DNA of 64,000 bases, taken from NCBI GenBank assembly GCA_947629825.1, contig CANRFF010000003.1, positions 124,001 to 188,000 on the forward strand. Direction: 5' to 3'. A model generated the notes under the pieces. That model made no database searches. It was not told where the DNA came from and saw only the letters and a program-made list of their open reading frames with translations. This DNA comes from an uncultured Anaeroplasmataceae bacterium (GTDB taxonomy: Bacteria; Bacillota_I; Bacilli_A; Acholeplasmatales; Anaeroplasmataceae). Positions 1-6,963 of this stretch are shown piece after piece. A program made the position numbers and the translations under genes. Numbering within the stretch: position 1 is the first letter of the stretch; each line of letters begins with the position of its first letter.

Positions 1-414
1 GTTACATTTGTACTGGATAGCCAAGGAAAAACAAGATTCTTTGATCAAACGGTAAGGGTTGATGTTTATAACGGTCATCCTTGTGTTTATGACGATGGTG
101 TAATGTATGAGATTGCAGGTGGTCAGTTCCTTTCGGTCAATCAGAAAAACTTCAAAAACGACTGGGAAATCCTTTTGGAAAACTTAGAAGACGGTAAAAA
201 AGAAGAAGAAAAAACGGAAACACCGACTTATAGAGTAACTTTGAGAAAGTTTGGTAGTACCGACACCTTTGTCTTCTATACAAAAGGAGAAGGCAAGGTT
301 ACACCTGTCGTTGCCGCACCGACCAAAATCGGATTCCGAGAGATTTATACAATCACCAATATGTATGCGAATGAAGAGTTGACTCAATCGGTTACCTATT
401 TCGGTTGGAAGTAA
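1..414 (+). CDS. C-terminal part of an unknown protein (truncated by window edge)
   Basis: The frame is open from base 1 and ends with TAA at 412-414, so about 137 residues of a longer protein are visible. The first ATG in frame, at 103, is internal to a well-coded stretch, so the true start lies upstream of the window. The fragment is mixed polar and beta-rich, with an acidic/lysine-rich linker (EDGKKEEEKTET) followed by a short beta-type module ending in FGWK. No catalytic motif, membrane segment or lipobox is visible. I do not recognise the family. It is followed by a terminator, so it ends its transcription unit. Confidence 0.7.
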   Translation, partial: VTFVLDSQGKTRFFDQTVRVDVYNGHPCVYDDGVMYEIAGGQFLSVNQKNFKNDWEILLENLEDGKKEEEKTETPTYRVTLRKFGSTDTFVFYTKGEGKVTPVVAAPTKIGFREIYTITNMYANEELTQSVTYFGWK

Positions 415-556
415 TTTCAAATATTGTTTTTCTTTAAAAAAGAATGACAATAGATCCGGCTCTGACCTTTTGTTTCGATGACAAATTTCGAAAAAAATAT
501 CCCTTTCCTCTTTTTTGAGTATTCATTGAAATGAAAGTGCGGGGTCAAAGATAAAG

Positions 557-587
557 AACCGTAAGAAATTTTTACGGTTTTTTATTT
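557..587 (+). terminator. Rho-independent terminator after the first gene
   Basis: Perfect 8-bp stem AACCGTAA (557-564) / TTACGGTT (572-579) with a 7-nt loop, followed by a T-rich run to 587. The rest of the 415-754 gap holds no convincing gene; its end carries the promoter at 716-744. Confidence 0.85.
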
Positions 588-715
588 TGCCGTTCAAACC
601 ATTTTTTGTCATAAAAAAGACCGTAAATTCTTTTAAAAAAACGGATTTTCAAAACGATGAAAATCACAGGGTTATAGTTTTACTATATGCAATCGATTTT
701 TTCTTCTATTTTATC

Positions 716-744
716 TTGACATAGGGGGGGGGTATAGTTAAAAT
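716..744 (+). promoter_or_regulatory. Promoter with G9 tract in the spacer (putative phase-variable switch)
   Basis: TTGACA (716-721, perfect -35) and TAAAAT (739-744, -10) are separated by exactly 17 bp, and nine of those bases (724-732) are an uninterrupted run of G. Transcription would start near 751, giving a leader of roughly 58 nt before the ATG at 809. Gain or loss of one or two G by slipped-strand mispairing would move the spacing away from 17 bp and change promoter strength. The as-read length is the optimal one, so this copy is predicted ON. Confidence 0.8.
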
Positions 745-808
745 GGAATTGTAGGTGTTTTACAAATATCTACAAAATATAAGAAAGGAAAAGAAAAGAA
801 AGTTAAAA

Positions 809-2707
809 ATGAAAAAATTAGGTTTCATGTTTTTAACACTATGTAGTTTTTGTTTTTTGGCGGCAGCGTTTTTACAAGTAAATGCCGCAGAAACATTGGT
901 GTCCGACGTATTGACAAATACGTTTTTGGGAGTCAGCGATAACAAGTATACGGCTTTTTCCGACGTCCAAGGAACCAGTGGCGTAACTTATGCTGGTCAA
1001 ATTGCGGCAGATACTGGTGATAAGGTTCAGTTACGTTCCACCAAAGATAATGAGAATAATTATAGCGGAATTGTAACGACAGGGACGTCCAATGCCTATG
1101 TCAGACGGATTACGGTGGTTTGGAATTCGAAAACCTCTCAAACAGCGGCCCGCACATTATCTATTTACGGAAAAACGTCCGCTTATACGGGTGCGAATGA
1201 TTTATATTCCAACGATGCCGGAGTGAAAGGAACTTCTTTGGGAAACTTAAAATACGATGTGGCTAAAGACGACATTGATACGGAACTTTCCGTTACCGGA
1301 GATTATTCCTATATCGGAATTCGTTCCAACAGCGGTGCCCTTTATTTGACTTCCATTACGATTGAATGGGGAGTTCAGAATATGTCCTCTTCGTCAGTAA
1401 CTGTTCATTTCGATACCAATGGGGGATCCGTGATTGCGGATAAAAAGGTAGAACCGGGAGAGAAATTGACGAATGTGGCAACACCGACGAAATCGGGATA
1501 TGTTTTTGCCGGTTGGTATCGGGACAATAATACATTTGAACAGGAATGGAATTTGGAAAACGATATGGTTTCTGAGGAAATGACTTTATATGCCAAGTGG
1601 GACGAACGTCCTGCAAGTTCGATTGCGGAAGCCAAAGAAAAAGCCAATAACGAAGAAGTCGTATTGAATAATGTAACGGTGGTCGCAACGTATGGAAATG
1701 GATTTTTAGTCAAAGATTCGACCGGAACGTTGTTGATTTATAAAGGATATGATTATGCGAAAGATCTTTCGATCGGAGATCAGGTAAAAGTAACAGGGAA
1801 AAAGTCTGAGTATTCGAAAATGGCACAAATTGCCGATCCGGTATATACGAAAACCGGTACCGAAACCGTTACTCAGCCGACTCCGAATAAACTGACGGCG
1901 GAAGATATTAACGATACGATAAGTCAATCGGCGGAGTTTGACGATACCGAGTATGTTACTATGGTGGGAACGTTAACGATCAGCGGAAGTTATTTCAATG
2001 TCCAGCTTACCGGACCTATCGAAACTTCGGTAGAAGGTTCTATCAGTTACTATGTCGGAGATTTATCGGCACTCAATGGCAAAAAAATAGCGGTTACGGG
2101 ATATTTCATCGGAGTTTCCGGAAGTTCTACCAAATACTACAATATCATGGCAACGGAAGTCCGCGAAGCGTCTGCGACGGAAGTTTTCGAAACCATTTAT
2201 CCGGAAATGTCTTTGAAGATTGATTTTGTTGAAGATCAGGCGTCTGTCGGATTGCGTATGAGTATGTTTCTTCCGAGCGAGGCTTATTTGGCGAATGCTT
2301 CTTACGGACTCATTTTCTATGACGCTTCAGATACGGAAACTTTATTGGTTCAACTGTCCGAAAATCCTACGGCAGATGAAATCGATACGATATTAGTTGC
2401 AAATCATCGGGCGATTCGTTTGGCAGGTACGGAGTTGGCTCGGGTAGATTATCCGCATGCCACTCAGACGAGCGCAACCGGAGAATACTGGCAATATGGA
2501 GTGGTATTGAATTCGATTCCGTCAACTCAATACAATAAAGATATTATGGTAGTCGGTTTTATGATTGTAAATGGGACGGTAACGACTTCTCAGGGGACGT
2601 CCTTTAACGTGAAATCGGTTGCCCAATCTTATGTGAATCAACAAGATGCTTTCACAGATATGTATTCGGCAAGAATCGTTCAAGCGGTAACCGCATTGAC
2701 AGAATAG
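809..2707 (+). CDS. Secreted surface protein with InlB-type repeat and OB-fold domains
   Basis: 632 residues from the ATG at 809. An in-frame GTG at 755 would lie almost on the predicted transcription start and puts a charged stretch before the signal peptide, so 809 is preferred, although its ribosome binding site is only purine-rich. Visible: signal peptide (MKKLGFMFL... ending VNA-AET near residue 26), a beta-rich N-terminal region, a Listeria-Bacteroides/InlB B-type repeat at about 195-265 (FDTNGGSV, GYVFAGWY, LYAKW), then about 190 residues of tandem OB-fold-like sequence (FLVKDSTGTLLIY, GDQVKVTG, ALNGKKIAVTGYFIG), and a C-terminal beta domain. OB-folds of this kind often accompany secreted nucleases (family knowledge), and the operon indeed ends with one. 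No LPXTG or membrane anchor is present, so it is probably released or held non-covalently. Role inferred: binding nucleic acid or glycan at the surface. Confidence 0.75.
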   Translation: MKKLGFMFLTLCSFCFLAAAFLQVNAAETLVSDVLTNTFLGVSDNKYTAFSDVQGTSGVTYAGQIAADTGDKVQLRSTKDNENNYSGIVTTGTSNAYVRRITVVWNSKTSQTAARTLSIYGKTSAYTGANDLYSNDAGVKGTSLGNLKYDVAKDDIDTELSVTGDYSYIGIRSNSGALYLTSITIEWGVQNMSSSSVTVHFDTNGGSVIADKKVEPGEKLTNVATPTKSGYVFAGWYRDNNTFEQEWNLENDMVSEEMTLYAKWDERPASSIAEAKEKANNEEVVLNNVTVVATYGNGFLVKDSTGTLLIYKGYDYAKDLSIGDQVKVTGKKSEYSKMAQIADPVYTKTGTETVTQPTPNKLTAEDINDTISQSAEFDDTEYVTMVGTLTISGSYFNVQLTGPIETSVEGSISYYVGDLSALNGKKIAVTGYFIGVSGSSTKYYNIMATEVREASATEVFETIYPEMSLKIDFVEDQASVGLRMSMFLPSEAYLANASYGLIFYDASDTETLLVQLSENPTADEIDTILVANHRAIRLAGTELARVDYPHATQTSATGEYWQYGVVLNSIPSTQYNKDIMVVGFMIVNGTVTTSQGTSFNVKSVAQSYVNQQDAFTDMYSARIVQAVTALTE

Positions 2708-2720
2708 GAGGACTTGAAAA

Positions 2721-3320
2721 ATGAAAAAATTATTCAGTTGTTTGATGTTTGTTTTTGCGATTGCGGTTTTGGTCGGTTGTGGTCATAGTCATACTTTTTC
2801 CGAAGATTGGAGTTCCGATGCGGACAATCATTGGCATGCGGCAACGTGTGGTCATGCCGATCAAAAACAAGATGAAGCGGCACATACTTTCGGAGAATGG
2901 GTGGTAACCCAAGCGGCAACCATTACGGCAAAAGGCAGTCAGAAAAGATCTTGTACCGTTTGCGGATATGAACAAATTGCGCAAATTCCGCAGTTGGAAT
3001 GTAACCATACTTATGGAGAATGGGTGGTAACCAAGGAAGCAACGACAACCGAAGCCGGAAGTCGTTCGAGAACTTGTACGCAGTGCGGAAATGTGGAAAC
3101 GGAAGAAATTCCGATGATAACGCACACCCATACTTTTTCCGAGGGTTGGAGTTCCGATGATTTCAATCATTGGCATGCGGCAACGTGCGATCATACCGAA
3201 CTAAGAGAAGGACAAGCGCCACACCAGTTTGTAAATGGAAGCTGCAGTGAATGCGGATATGAAAAGACGTTGGGTTCCGAAGCCGGAGATCATAACGTAG
3301 ATTGGCCTTGGACCGAATAA
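2721..3320 (+). CDS. His/Cys-rich repeat lipoprotein
   Basis: 199 residues, AGGAGG 9 nt before the ATG. A signal peptide ending in lipobox LVGC (Cys near residue 20) predicts a lipid-anchored extracellular protein. The mature part is built of repeats: HTF-x-x-x-W-S-S-D...NHWHAATC-x-H occurs twice, and (H)T(F/Y)GEWVVT...CTxCG is present in two full copies, with a third CSECGYEK at the end. The regularly spaced Cys and His suggest metal (zinc) binding or disulfide-stabilised modules; repeats like these are widespread in Firmicutes surface proteins but have no assigned function that I know of. It lies 13 nt after the OB-fold protein and before the nuclease. A zinc-holding or structural accessory role is inference. 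Confidence 0.75.
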   Translation: MKKLFSCLMFVFAIAVLVGCGHSHTFSEDWSSDADNHWHAATCGHADQKQDEAAHTFGEWVVTQAATITAKGSQKRSCTVCGYEQIAQIPQLECNHTYGEWVVTKEATTTEAGSRSRTCTQCGNVETEEIPMITHTHTFSEGWSSDDFNHWHAATCDHTELREGQAPHQFVNGSCSECGYEKTLGSEAGDHNVDWPWTE

Positions 3321-3325
3321 ATATC

Positions 3326-3353
3326 GAAACCTTCTGTGAAAACGGAAGGTTTC
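3326..3353 (+). terminator. Weak intra-operon hairpin
   Basis: GAAACCTTC (3326-3334) pairs perfectly with GAAGGTTTC (3345-3353), but the sequence after it has no real U-run. More likely an attenuating or mRNA-processing hairpin between the lipoprotein and nuclease genes than a full terminator. Confidence 0.45.
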
Positions 3354-3376
3354 TCTGATAATAAGGAGGAATGAAT

Positions 3377-5773
3377 ATGAGGAAAAAAATGGGGTTTTTG
3401 TCGATTTTTACAGCGATCGGTTCGTTGTTTTTATTGAGTGTTCCATCGAAGAACGTTCAAGCGGCGGTATCCATGCCCACGCCTCAGTCCTCTTCGTCCC
3501 TGCCGTCTACGATTGATTTGAAAGATAATACGGACGAAGAAATTCGGAACTATTATCAATCTTTTTCCTCATTGAGCGAAGAAGAGCGAACGGGGACAAA
3601 TATTTTAAAAAATTTAAAACCGATTTTACAGAATTTTACGTATTATTCCTATGATAATGTCTGGAAAGTCTATGAAATTACGGATCGGGAATGGGAGTTG
3701 TCTCCCGCTTCCGGTACGACTTACGGAACATATCATTCGGATACGAATACCATTACCGGTTATCAATACGGCTCTTCGTCCAGCCCGAAAAACGATCCGT
3801 ATGTGCATACGCTTTATCGGAATCGGGATGCCGAAGGAGTGACGGTCGAAGCCGGAAGGATTAAAAACTGGGGAGACCATAACGGGACGGCGAATGCGAC
3901 CAACAAAGAACATGTGTGGCCGCAGTCCAGAGGATTCAAAGCGTCGAGCGGAGCAACGGGACCTGCGGGAACCGATGTTCATCACTTGATGAGCGGAGAC
4001 GCTTATGTCAATCAACAACCTCACAACAACAATCCTTATGGTTATGTCAGCCCTTCCGGCATTGATAAAGACGCAAAAAATAAAGCGCCTTATTTGGCGG
4101 GGAATTTATCCGGAACTCCGAAAAACCGCCACTCGCAAGATCAAGGGTCGGTTGTATTCGAACCGCAGGATTCCGACAAAGGAGATATTGCCCGGGCTTG
4201 TTTTTATATGGTGGCGTGCTATAACAATTTAAGCGGAACGGATACGATTACGCAGTATAATCCGAATTTGGAATTGGTAGATTATGTGACCGATGCGGGA
4301 AGCAGTGAATCGAGCAGTGCCACTCATGCCGTTTCGATCGGGATTCTTTCGGACTTGTTAGATTGGCACCGGAAAGATCCGGTGGACGAATACGAAATTC
4401 ATCGGAACAATCTGATTTTCAATAATTATCAACACAACAGAAATCCGTTTATTGATTTTCCGCAGTGGGTGGAATATATCTGGGGGGACTTGAAAGGAGA
4501 AGTATCGGCCGATCCTTTGACGGACGGAATCAACGGAGAATCCGTTTCAATCAGTTCTCAGAATAAATCAATGGTGATCGGAGAACAATTCGATTTAAAG
4601 ATTATTGCGCCTGCGAATGCGACGGTATCTTGGTCTGTTTTACCGACCGATGTGGTTTCTTTGAGTTCGACTTCGGGATTGACGACCAAAGTAACTGCAT
4701 CAAAACAGGGAAATGCGACCATTACCGCAAGTGTGAATATTCCGGGAGAGTCGGTCATTCAAAAGACTTGTATTGTAACGGTAACGGAAGCGCAGGCTTT
4801 GCCGGATTGGAAAACGGAAGTTTCCATCAGTGAACAGACGCATACGACTTCCGGAAATGCCTTTCAACTGACAATTTCCTCGGCACCGCCTTCTTCGACG
4901 ATTACGTGGAGTACGTCTTTGAACGGAGTGGTTCAACTGAGTGCGACTACCGGAGCAAGCGTAACGGTTACTCCGCTCAAAAACGGAGTGGTTACGGTTA
5001 TGGCGACGATTACTTCGGGTAGCGAGAGTGTTTCGAAGAGTTGTGTGGTAACGGTTTCCGATTTACCGGATCCTCCGTCTTGGGGGGCGGAAGTTTCTAT
5101 CAGTAAAGAAACGCATACGACTTCGGGAAGTTCTTTTGATTTGAATGTTTCAAATACGCCGACCGCTTCGACGATTACGTGGAGTGCTTCTCCCGAAGGA
5201 ATGGTTCAACTGAGTGCGACTACCGGAGCAAGCGTCACGATTACTCCGCTCAAAAACGGAGTGGTTACGGTTACGGCAACGATTACTTCGGCCGGAAAGA
5301 GCGTTTTGAAAACTTGTACGATTACGATTTCGAATCTAACGGCACCGTCGACACCGCCGAGTTCGAAACCGAGTGTGGAGTTGAATTTTAGTACGAAAGA
5401 ACTGAAAATCGGTCAGTCTTTCGATTTGCGGGCGACGATCAACGGTACGACGTCGGTCGACTGGCTGTTCGAGGGTTCCAACTTTTTGGAGATCATCGAA
5501 AACAACGACGGAAGTCTGACGATTACCGGAAAACAGGCGGGGACGGCGAAAGTGACCGCTACCATTGAGGTCGGCGGGGTTTCTTACAGTGCCGTTTGTG
5601 AAGTAACCGTTTTGAAAGCGACGCCGGAAAAAGACAACAAAGAAGAAGGCTCGCAAGATCAGCAAAACTTCCGGATTATGATTTGGGTCGTTATCGGTTT
5701 GGCGGTGATTCTGGTTCTTGTGATTGTCGGAATTGTCATCGGCTGTTCGAAAAAAAGAGAAAAATCAGCCTAG
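3377..5773 (+). CDS. Membrane-anchored extracellular endonuclease I family nuclease with Ig-like repeats
   Basis: 798 residues. AAGGAGGA (3363-3370) fits the ATG at 3377 (6-nt spacing) better than the ATG at 3371. Order of parts: signal peptide (cleavage near VQA-A); endonuclease I catalytic domain with the beta-beta-alpha metal motif NKEHVWPQS around residue 178 and TDVHHLMSGD / NNNPYG around 200-220; then at least four bacterial Ig-like (BIG2-type) modules from about 385 to 755; and a C-terminal transmembrane helix (IMIWVVIGLAVILVLVIVG) followed by a basic tail. The enzyme should cut extracellular DNA or RNA non-specifically while tethered to the membrane, with the Ig stalk carrying it through the wall. 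The two middle Ig modules are near-identical copies at the DNA level (273-bp period). The stop codon lies inside the terminator stem. Confidence 0.88.
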   Translation: MRKKMGFLSIFTAIGSLFLLSVPSKNVQAAVSMPTPQSSSSLPSTIDLKDNTDEEIRNYYQSFSSLSEEERTGTNILKNLKPILQNFTYYSYDNVWKVYEITDREWELSPASGTTYGTYHSDTNTITGYQYGSSSSPKNDPYVHTLYRNRDAEGVTVEAGRIKNWGDHNGTANATNKEHVWPQSRGFKASSGATGPAGTDVHHLMSGDAYVNQQPHNNNPYGYVSPSGIDKDAKNKAPYLAGNLSGTPKNRHSQDQGSVVFEPQDSDKGDIARACFYMVACYNNLSGTDTITQYNPNLELVDYVTDAGSSESSSATHAVSIGILSDLLDWHRKDPVDEYEIHRNNLIFNNYQHNRNPFIDFPQWVEYIWGDLKGEVSADPLTDGINGESVSISSQNKSMVIGEQFDLKIIAPANATVSWSVLPTDVVSLSSTSGLTTKVTASKQGNATITASVNIPGESVIQKTCIVTVTEAQALPDWKTEVSISEQTHTTSGNAFQLTISSAPPSSTITWSTSLNGVVQLSATTGASVTVTPLKNGVVTVMATITSGSESVSKSCVVTVSDLPDPPSWGAEVSISKETHTTSGSSFDLNVSNTPTASTITWSASPEGMVQLSATTGASVTITPLKNGVVTVTATITSAGKSVLKTCTITISNLTAPSTPPSSKPSVELNFSTKELKIGQSFDLRATINGTTSVDWLFEGSNFLEIIENNDGSLTITGKQAGTAKVTATIEVGGVSYSAVCEVTVLKATPEKDNKEEGSQDQQNFRIMIWVVIGLAVILVLVIVGIVIGCSKKREKSA
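4829..5374 (+). repeat. Tandem 273-bp Ig-domain repeat in the nuclease gene
   Basis: Blocks starting at 4829 and 5102 align with a fixed offset of 273 bp (91 codons). The stretch beginning at 4929 and its copy at 5202 are almost identical over about 70 bp, including the repeated CTCAAAAACGGAGTGGTTA. The copies are recent enough to recombine, so domain number may vary between strains. Confidence 0.8.
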
Positions 5774-5793
5774 GAATTTCCTAGGCTTTTTTT
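5767..5793 (+). terminator. Terminator of the nuclease operon
   Basis: AGCCTAGG (5767-5774) pairs with CCTAGGCT (5780-5787), 5-nt loop, then a T-run to 5793. The TAG stop of the nuclease gene is part of the left arm. Confidence 0.92.
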
Positions 5794-5817
5794 GTTGGAT
5801 AAAAATAAAAAAAATGC

Positions 5818-5846
5818 TTGCTTTTGCGTTCGGAATCGGTTATAAT
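5818..5846 (+). promoter_or_regulatory. Promoter of the S10-spc-alpha ribosomal operon
   Basis: TTGCTT (5818-5823), 17-bp spacer, perfect TATAAT (5841-5846). It is the only strong promoter seen ahead of the ribosomal cluster. Confidence 0.85.
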
Positions 5847-5852
5847 GTAAAA

Positions 5853-5975
5853 GCTTATGTATGAGCATATAGTGGCTGTGAAGTGGGAGGTTGTCGACAC
5901 GCTGATACACGTTGTCATTGCGGCGTGTAGGGTTTTTCCACGGAGCAAGTCTATACGGGATTATAGGCGAAAGGA
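5853..5975 (+). promoter_or_regulatory. Structured 5' leader of the S10 operon
   Basis: About 120 nt of untranslated leader precede rpsJ. They contain a stem ACACGC (5897-5902) / GCGTGT (5923-5928) closing a loop with CACGTTGTCATTG, and the string GTGGGAGGT before it. From memory, very similar sequence precedes rpsJ in many Firmicutes, which suggests a conserved regulatory leader. The ligand is not shown by sequence. L4-mediated control is known for the proteobacterial S10 leader, but the structure here differs. Confidence 0.6.
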
Positions 5976-5984
5976 GTTTTAAAA

Positions 5985-6290
5985 ATGGCAAAATCAAGAA
6001 TCAGAATTCGTTTGAAATCTTATGATCACAGATTGTTGGATCAGTCTGCGAAGAAAATCGTGGACAGTGTAAAGAAAACGGGATCCAAGGTCAACGGACC
6101 GGTTCCGCTTCCGACAGAAAAAGAGATTTTTACGATTTTACGTTCTCCGCACGTGAATAAAGATTCACGGGAACAATTCGAACGTAGAACGCATAAGAGA
6201 CTCATCGAAATTGTGGATCCGACTCCACAAACCATCGACGCTTTGATGCATATTGATTTACCGTCCGGTATCGATATCGTATTGAAGTAA
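5985..6290 (+). CDS. rpsJ: 30S ribosomal protein S10 (NusE)
   Basis: 101 residues, the usual length, with the S10 signature around [10 protein letters not shown] and the tRNA-binding loop near [17 protein letters not shown]. It binds the head of the 30S subunit and, as NusE, links ribosomes to NusG and NusB in antitermination. AAAGGAG precedes the ATG. It is the first gene of the cluster and the one directly downstream of the structured leader. Confidence 0.97.
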
Positions 6291-6318
6291 AAAAAATCAG
6301 AAAAGAGGAAAAAAAGAA

Positions 6319-6963
6319 ATGGCTAAGGGAATCTTAGGAAGAAAATTGGGCATGACTCAAATTTTCGATGCAGCAGGGAACTTAATCCCTGTAACCATTA
6401 TCGATGCTACTCCGAATGTTGTTTTACAACACAAAACAGTAGAACGTGATGGATATGTTGCCGTTCAGGTCGGTTTCGAAGACAAAAGAGAAAGTCTTTC
6501 GAATAAACCGGAACGGGGCCATGTTGCCAAGGCAAACACTGCTCCTAAGCGCTTCATAAGAGAATTCCGTTTCTCGGAAGCTTTAGGAAATGAGTTGTTA
6601 TCTTACAATGTTGGCCAAGAAATTAAGTGTGATATATTTGCGGCGGGAGATCTTGTCGATGTGACGGGGACTTCCAAAGGAAAGGGTTTTGCGGGAACGA
6701 TCAAGCGTTATAATCATGCTCGTTTGAGAATGAGCCACGGTACGTCTGCCTGCCATAGAATCGTCGGTTCTATGGGTCCGATCAAAGGAAATATGAAAGG
6801 GAAGAAGATGCCGGGACATTTGGGGCATGAAACCGTTACTTTGCAAAATTTAGTGATTGCGGCTGTCGATAAAGAAAGAGACTTGATTCTGATCCGCGGA
6901 AATGTTCCGGGACCGAAAAAGAGTCTGGTTGTTATCAAGACCGCAGTGAAGGCAAATTCGTAG
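6319..6963 (+). CDS. rplC: 50S ribosomal protein L3
   Basis: 214 residues. It begins [16 protein letters not shown] and carries the [14 protein letters not shown] signature and the glycine-rich [11 protein letters not shown] region that reaches toward the peptidyl transferase centre. It is one of the first proteins in 50S assembly. It follows rpsJ by 28 nt with a GAGGAAAAAAAG ribosome binding site, in the standard order S10-L3-L4-L23-L2. Confidence 0.97.

Follow-up and report, generated by a model that had tools for sequence, protein, structure and literature searches.

A poly-G promoter spacer ahead of a surface-protein and nuclease operon in an uncultured Anaeroplasma-like bacterium: a candidate length-switch promoter from a lineage-wide set

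Does the run of nine G residues in the spacer of the promoter at 716-744 of the window (the whole 64,000-nucleotide stretch of DNA analysed here) act as a slippage site that resets transcription of the genes behind it, or is it a fixed element, a by-product of inheritance or an accident? The promoter stretch (atcTTGACAtaGGGGGGGGGtatagtTAAAATgg, containing TTGACA, G9 and TAAAAT) reads in the order TTGACA, TA, nine G, TATAGT, TAAAAT, and direct reading bears out the preliminary description, which had placed TTGACA and TAAAAT 17 bp apart with G9 at 724-732. The features of the promoter and of the operon are as follows.

557-579, plus strand: inverted repeat followed by T residues, upstream of the promoter (direct reading; the scan lists it on the minus strand)
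716-721, plus strand: -35 hexamer TTGACA, 6/6 (read off the sequence; promoter scan)
724-732, plus strand: G9 homopolymer within the spacer, the proposed slippage site (sequence reading and run count; the genome has seven promoters of this type)
733-738, plus strand: alternative -10-like hexamer TATAGT adjoining the 3' end of the G run, spacer 11 bp (sequence reading)
739-744, plus strand: -10 hexamer TAAAAT, 5/6, spacer 17 bp (722-738) (sequence reading; scan)
809-2707, plus strand: gene 1, 632 residues, signal-peptide-like N terminus and Listeria-Bacteroides repeat (PF09479) (Pfam; homologues in the relatives G005 and G006)
2721-3320, plus strand: gene 2, 199 residues, lipoprotein-like and His/Cys-rich, with no Pfam match (open reading frame and domain search)
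3371-5773, plus strand: gene 3, Endonuclease I (PF04231), 800 residues; it has Ig-like domains and, at its C terminus, a membrane-spanning stretch (Pfam)
5767-5787, plus strand: strong intrinsic-terminator-like hairpin closing the operon (terminator scan)

TAAAAT is the better -10 hexamer, since the choice of TATAGT would leave a spacer of 11 bp; in relatives, the G run of a poly-G promoter is usually followed at once by TATAAT. With a score of 11/12 the window promoter is the top promoter-like site in 400-6400, a region for which the scan gives 11 such sites in all against 10.7 expected, no excess over chance. A first-order model predicts 0.37 G9 runs per 64 kb, an overestimate in that the observed G5-G6 counts lie below the same model, and a single one is unremarkable. 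What is non-random is the position of the run between -35 and -10, because this arrangement recurs. The pattern TTGAC-N-G6+-N-TANNAT matches seven times in the assembly of the genome (G000; 1.42 Mb in 12 contigs), each time with a run of nine or ten G, whereas the backward pattern used as a control never matches; among 41 genomes, this one included, 13 carry poly-G spacer promoters and the backward control again has none. The uniqueness given to the tract in the preliminary description therefore extends to the window, where it is the sole G run longer than six, but not to the genome, in which there are at least seven such promoters.

Because genes 1-3 are co-directional, closely spaced and flanked at both borders by terminator-like elements, the promoter probably serves the whole three-gene operon, and the repeat at 557-579 is likely to be the terminator of the preceding gene, insulating the transcription unit. 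The operon had been called a surface-nuclease operon; surface and nuclease genes are indeed present, but the sole nuclease (Endonuclease I) is the product of gene 3, and gene 1 encodes a repeat-bearing surface protein. The C terminus of gene 2, GSEAGDHNVDWPWTE, resembles, by eye only, peptides of ~45 residues encoded at the same place in relatives. It ends in a GDxxxxxPW motif, similar to the short peptides of the relatives' poly-G operons.

The congeners G005 and G006 share the gene order, with a gene 1 homologue, a peptide of 44-46 residues and two Endonuclease_1 proteins. Gene 1 is 32% identical to its G005 homologue over 227 residues (E 2e-19), the G006 match being weaker, and Endonuclease_1 is 34% identical to that of G005 in the catalytic region. 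Both operons are headed by poly-G promoters, TTGACA-N10-G8-TACAAT (spacer 18) and TTGACT-N10-G9-TATAAT (spacer 19), respectively; the three homologous operons thus have spacers of 17 (window), 18 and 19 bp within diverged flanking DNA. A search of the genus at the DNA level for orthologues of the window promoter found none close enough, and the operon was recovered via protein. In G010 the homologous contig stops close to the expected tract position. Contig ends often lie at or near poly-G tracts (G009:C11, G010:C75 and G007:C338), and such breaks, which carry no weight in the argument here, may arise from length mixtures or from badly sequenced G runs.

The other six spacer promoters of the genome, with G9-G10 tracts, stand before a 2209-residue BspA-type leucine-rich protein, two BspA-type lipoproteins, a PMT_2 glycosyltransferase, a sugar-nucleotide dehydratase cluster and one region without an assigned product. 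Relatives contribute ~40 further poly-G promoters, mostly from two genera of one family: the family scan finds them in 8 of 11 genomes of genus g1, 6 of 9 of g4 (two scans combined), 1 of 28 of g6 and 0 of the others, and the looser -10 pattern of the 41-genome scan adds one genome in g3. A C-tract version of the pattern has 0 matches in 55 genomes. A draw of 395 genomes from across the class includes 18 with poly-G promoters, with 0 matches for the control. Among the matches listed in the scan of named genomes are gut Bacilli and Clostridia, Saccharibacteria, Spirochaetia, Streptococcus, Gemella, Helicobacter and Streptobacillus.

The closest known system is porA of Neisseria meningitidis, in which poly-G lies between -35 and -10 and 11G gives high, 10G half and 9G 13-fold less surface protein (PMC3639595; the promoter is also described by van der Ende 1995, cited in a passage of PMC5084427). 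As in porA, the window promoter has a G homopolymer between the consensus -35 and -10 hexamers of a sigma70-type promoter and drives a surface or exported product. porA, however, is one gene of a Gram-negative pathogen with experimental proof, whereas here there are many promoters in uncultured Bacilli known from sequence alone, and unlike in porA the G run usually abuts -10. We consider it likely that the promoter at 716-744 is a length switch of the porA type, with the G9 as its slippage site, and that it belongs to a lineage-wide set. Slipped-strand mispairing would add or remove G residues and so change the -35 to -10 spacing, which would raise or lower transcription across the entire 745-5790 operon step by step; by analogy with porA, G9 would be an active state, a gain or loss of one G would have a graded effect and changes of two or more would mostly turn the promoter off. 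Since the window promoter is one of at least seven alike in the genome, the sequence suggests that many surface genes can be turned up or down randomly as G runs slip, and the promoters of the set would together create variety in surface proteins and surface glycans and in some genes of phage defence. Spacer-length phase variation had been proposed in the preliminary description, and it gains from the recurrence of the tract at surface-gene promoters, the other spacers in the two relatives and the differing tracts behind identical 5' flanks described below; its idea of one G as an on/off change fares less well, as the resulting 16- or 18-bp spacer would be expected to act in a graded manner, as in porA (PMC3639595).

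In genus g1, the non-G 5' part of the poly-G spacers is 9 nt in 16 of 22 promoters and the G run is 8-11, giving spacers of 17 bp in three, 18 in 11, 19 in five and 20 in three; this 5' part has a recurring AAAxTATAx look. Ordinary TTGACA/TATAAT promoters of g1 peak at a spacer of 17 (55 of 126 among the matches listed), and spacers of 19-20 bp are found in 8 of 22 poly-G promoters versus 9 of 104 ordinary ones among the matches listed (p = 0.002). Because poly-G spacers are mostly 18 bp here and 18-19 bp in the wider set, the 17 bp assumed earlier may not be best for a spacer filled with G, and the optimum may lie at a greater length. In diverse taxa (L077-L194) spacers look bimodal, at 15-16 and 18-19 bp, with 17 rare (7 of 127 among the matches listed), in a search whose pattern admitted 13-20 equally.

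Tract lengths in relatives, a check that the preliminary description had proposed, differ in some cases and are constant in others, with the proviso that a metagenome assembly may misstate the length of a homopolymer. Orthologous promoters of family b have G10, G10 and G12, the G12 copy with a degraded -10, and within single genomes, promoters that share the 5' flank and the -10 carry unequal numbers of G in G389 (G10/G11), Lapin-033 bin54 (G9/G10) and the G400 array (G8/G9). Family c has G8 in all three species. Indels also occur in the promoter flanks, and their enrichment in the tract is only modest. In the G400 tandem array, eight paralogous surface genes have promoter copies with G9 in seven and G8 in one. 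The array (L328/L329/L330; G400:C6:4500-30000 and C41) encodes paralogous exported proteins of ~450-500 residues behind near-identical poly-G promoters, in which G9 goes with a spacer of 19 and G8 with one of 18. It resembles the vlp arrays of Mycoplasma hyorhinis and other mycoplasma variable-lipoprotein arrays, the vlp genes being a family of variable surface lipoproteins, and the single copy of differing tract length is reminiscent of antigen switching with one gene on and the rest off.

The same comparisons bear on a different explanation, that the G run, as a constant part of the promoter, marks a surface-gene regulon, being either a regulator site or an A-like G-tract DNA shape favoured near -10 by the RNA polymerase of this lineage. 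The nearly constant contact of the tract with -10, the ~9-nt 5' part with its AAAxTATAx look and the G8 of family c speak for it. The strongest case is family a, in which six species keep a spacer of exactly 17 bp with pure G8 in two and an interrupted G-rich 3' part in four; it points best to a fixed G-rich element, or else to switches that have become locked at 17 bp. One would not expect a fixed operator to allow pure runs of 7-14 and spacers of 13-20, or tract lengths that differ despite identical 5' flank and -10, and a binding site hardly explains the need for a pure run; if spacing were fixed, the G count should be offset by the remainder of the spacer, and no such compensation was seen (permutation p = 0.52). 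We regard a fixed element as unlikely, though still a live rival.

Several of these observations nevertheless count against the slippage switch itself: the tract is identical in family c and in seven of the eight G400 copies, and the 17-bp spacer of family a is kept even with an interrupted G run. The length-constant family c and G400 copies argue that turnover of the tracts is not extreme. MutS homologues, which would lower slippage rates, are also present, with MutS_V domain proteins in 13 of 13 genomes (859 residues in G000); the porA strain likewise has a functional mutS, and its mutS mutant switches faster (PMC3639595). Loss of mismatch repair in a hypermutable lineage was considered as a cause and rejected, given these homologues.

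First open reading frames behind poly-G promoters have export-like N termini in 31 of 41 cases, versus 49 of 182 background frames (Fisher 1e-8), by a crude hydrophobic-N-terminus test with some false positives (e.g. L271). The first genes that are not export-like include a glycosyltransferase, a sugar-nucleotide enzyme and two Mokosh MkoA-like operons from two genomes, one with G8 and spacer 17 and the other with G11 and spacer 20; another poly-G promoter heads an operon with a TIR-like protein. The defence-like loci, Mokosh MkoA-like and TIR-like, are at L252:1241-7949, L274:19-6864 and L273:4144-7550, and the Mokosh-like and TIR-containing operons are possibly phase-variable phage defence. 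This range of products makes it improbable that slippage is real but incidental, the promoters being inherited or copied sequence in which length changes are noise with little fitness effect. Some promoters do look duplicated along with their genes, as in the G400 array, and tract lengths are often conserved between species; yet exported products, defence genes and glycan enzymes are enriched across unrelated downstream genes, and the promoter type recurs in unrelated taxa. Chance coincidence or an assembly artefact at the window locus alone is very improbable: simple statistics would allow a single G9 per 64 kb, but in scans of 41 to 395 genomes the control patterns give 0 matches where the poly-G pattern gives dozens, independent assemblies concur, and chance is ruled out by the backward and C-tract controls.

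Many tracts of the Campylobacter phasome are intragenic. The set found here, collected with a promoter pattern, is by comparison with the Campylobacter and Neisseria phasomes mostly transcriptional, and its genomes likewise hold many surface-biased candidate switch loci. In those simple-sequence phasomes many surface-biased phase-variable loci occur per genome (PMC6321876, PMC5084427); of the tracts in PMC5084427, about half are intragenic. Slippage of a G tract also controls surface structures of a gut commensal, in the Bifidobacterium breve pilus (PMC9187656), but that tract lies in coding sequence and acts on translation, whereas nearly all tracts found here are in promoters. According to PMC3899988 and work cited in PMC5084427, repeat length controls surface-gene promoters in N. 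meningitidis opc (poly-C), the Bordetella pertussis fimbrial genes and M. hyorhinis vlp, with other bases or other positions relative to -35 and in other lineages. The switch mechanism itself is established. The open-licence literature searched appears to hold no description of its operation at the promoters of many loci in uncultured gut Bacilli, and the search turned up no case of poly-G switching at many promoters of a single uncultured Bacilli lineage with defence operons among them. That Anaeroplasma-like and other uncultured gut Bacilli have a promoter-level phasome, stochastically and gradually setting surface proteins, surface glycans, extracellular nuclease and Mokosh-type defence, is a proposal for which we see even chances; if true, surface make-up and phage defence would differ from cell to cell. 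The promoters form a defined list of loci for testing length switching in uncultured, apparently gut-dwelling bacteria.

Poly-G operons also contain, after the first surface gene, peptides of 44-50 residues of the form (Y)xxPxxExxxIxxEDIxAxS...W-G-[KR], which look like secreted or modified peptide precursors.

L253:3132-3263: short peptide
L256:2809-2958: short peptide
L258:5873-6007: short peptide
L266:3150-3287: short peptide

An upstream element of two TAGACA repeats around an opposite-strand G run is shared near poly-G promoters of two species (upstream in L254, and L273; G006:C39 and G004:C2). Contig C4 of G000 has more G runs immediately 5' of TATAAT-like boxes, and a G8 lies within the conserved gene mnmA (G000:C6:71226-71233). 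On the minus strand of the same contig, a G9 (G000:C4:72133-72141; L040) ends 8 nt before the TTG start of an ABC-transporter ATPase, at the position of a ribosome-binding site, and is a possible translational variant. At G000:C2:182448-185518 (L036:2449-5519), a G9 lies exactly where a 735-codon Ig-like open reading frame switches frame, the second frame running for ~300 codons; this locus looks like either a translational counterpart, that is, a coding phase-variable locus, or a decayed gene.
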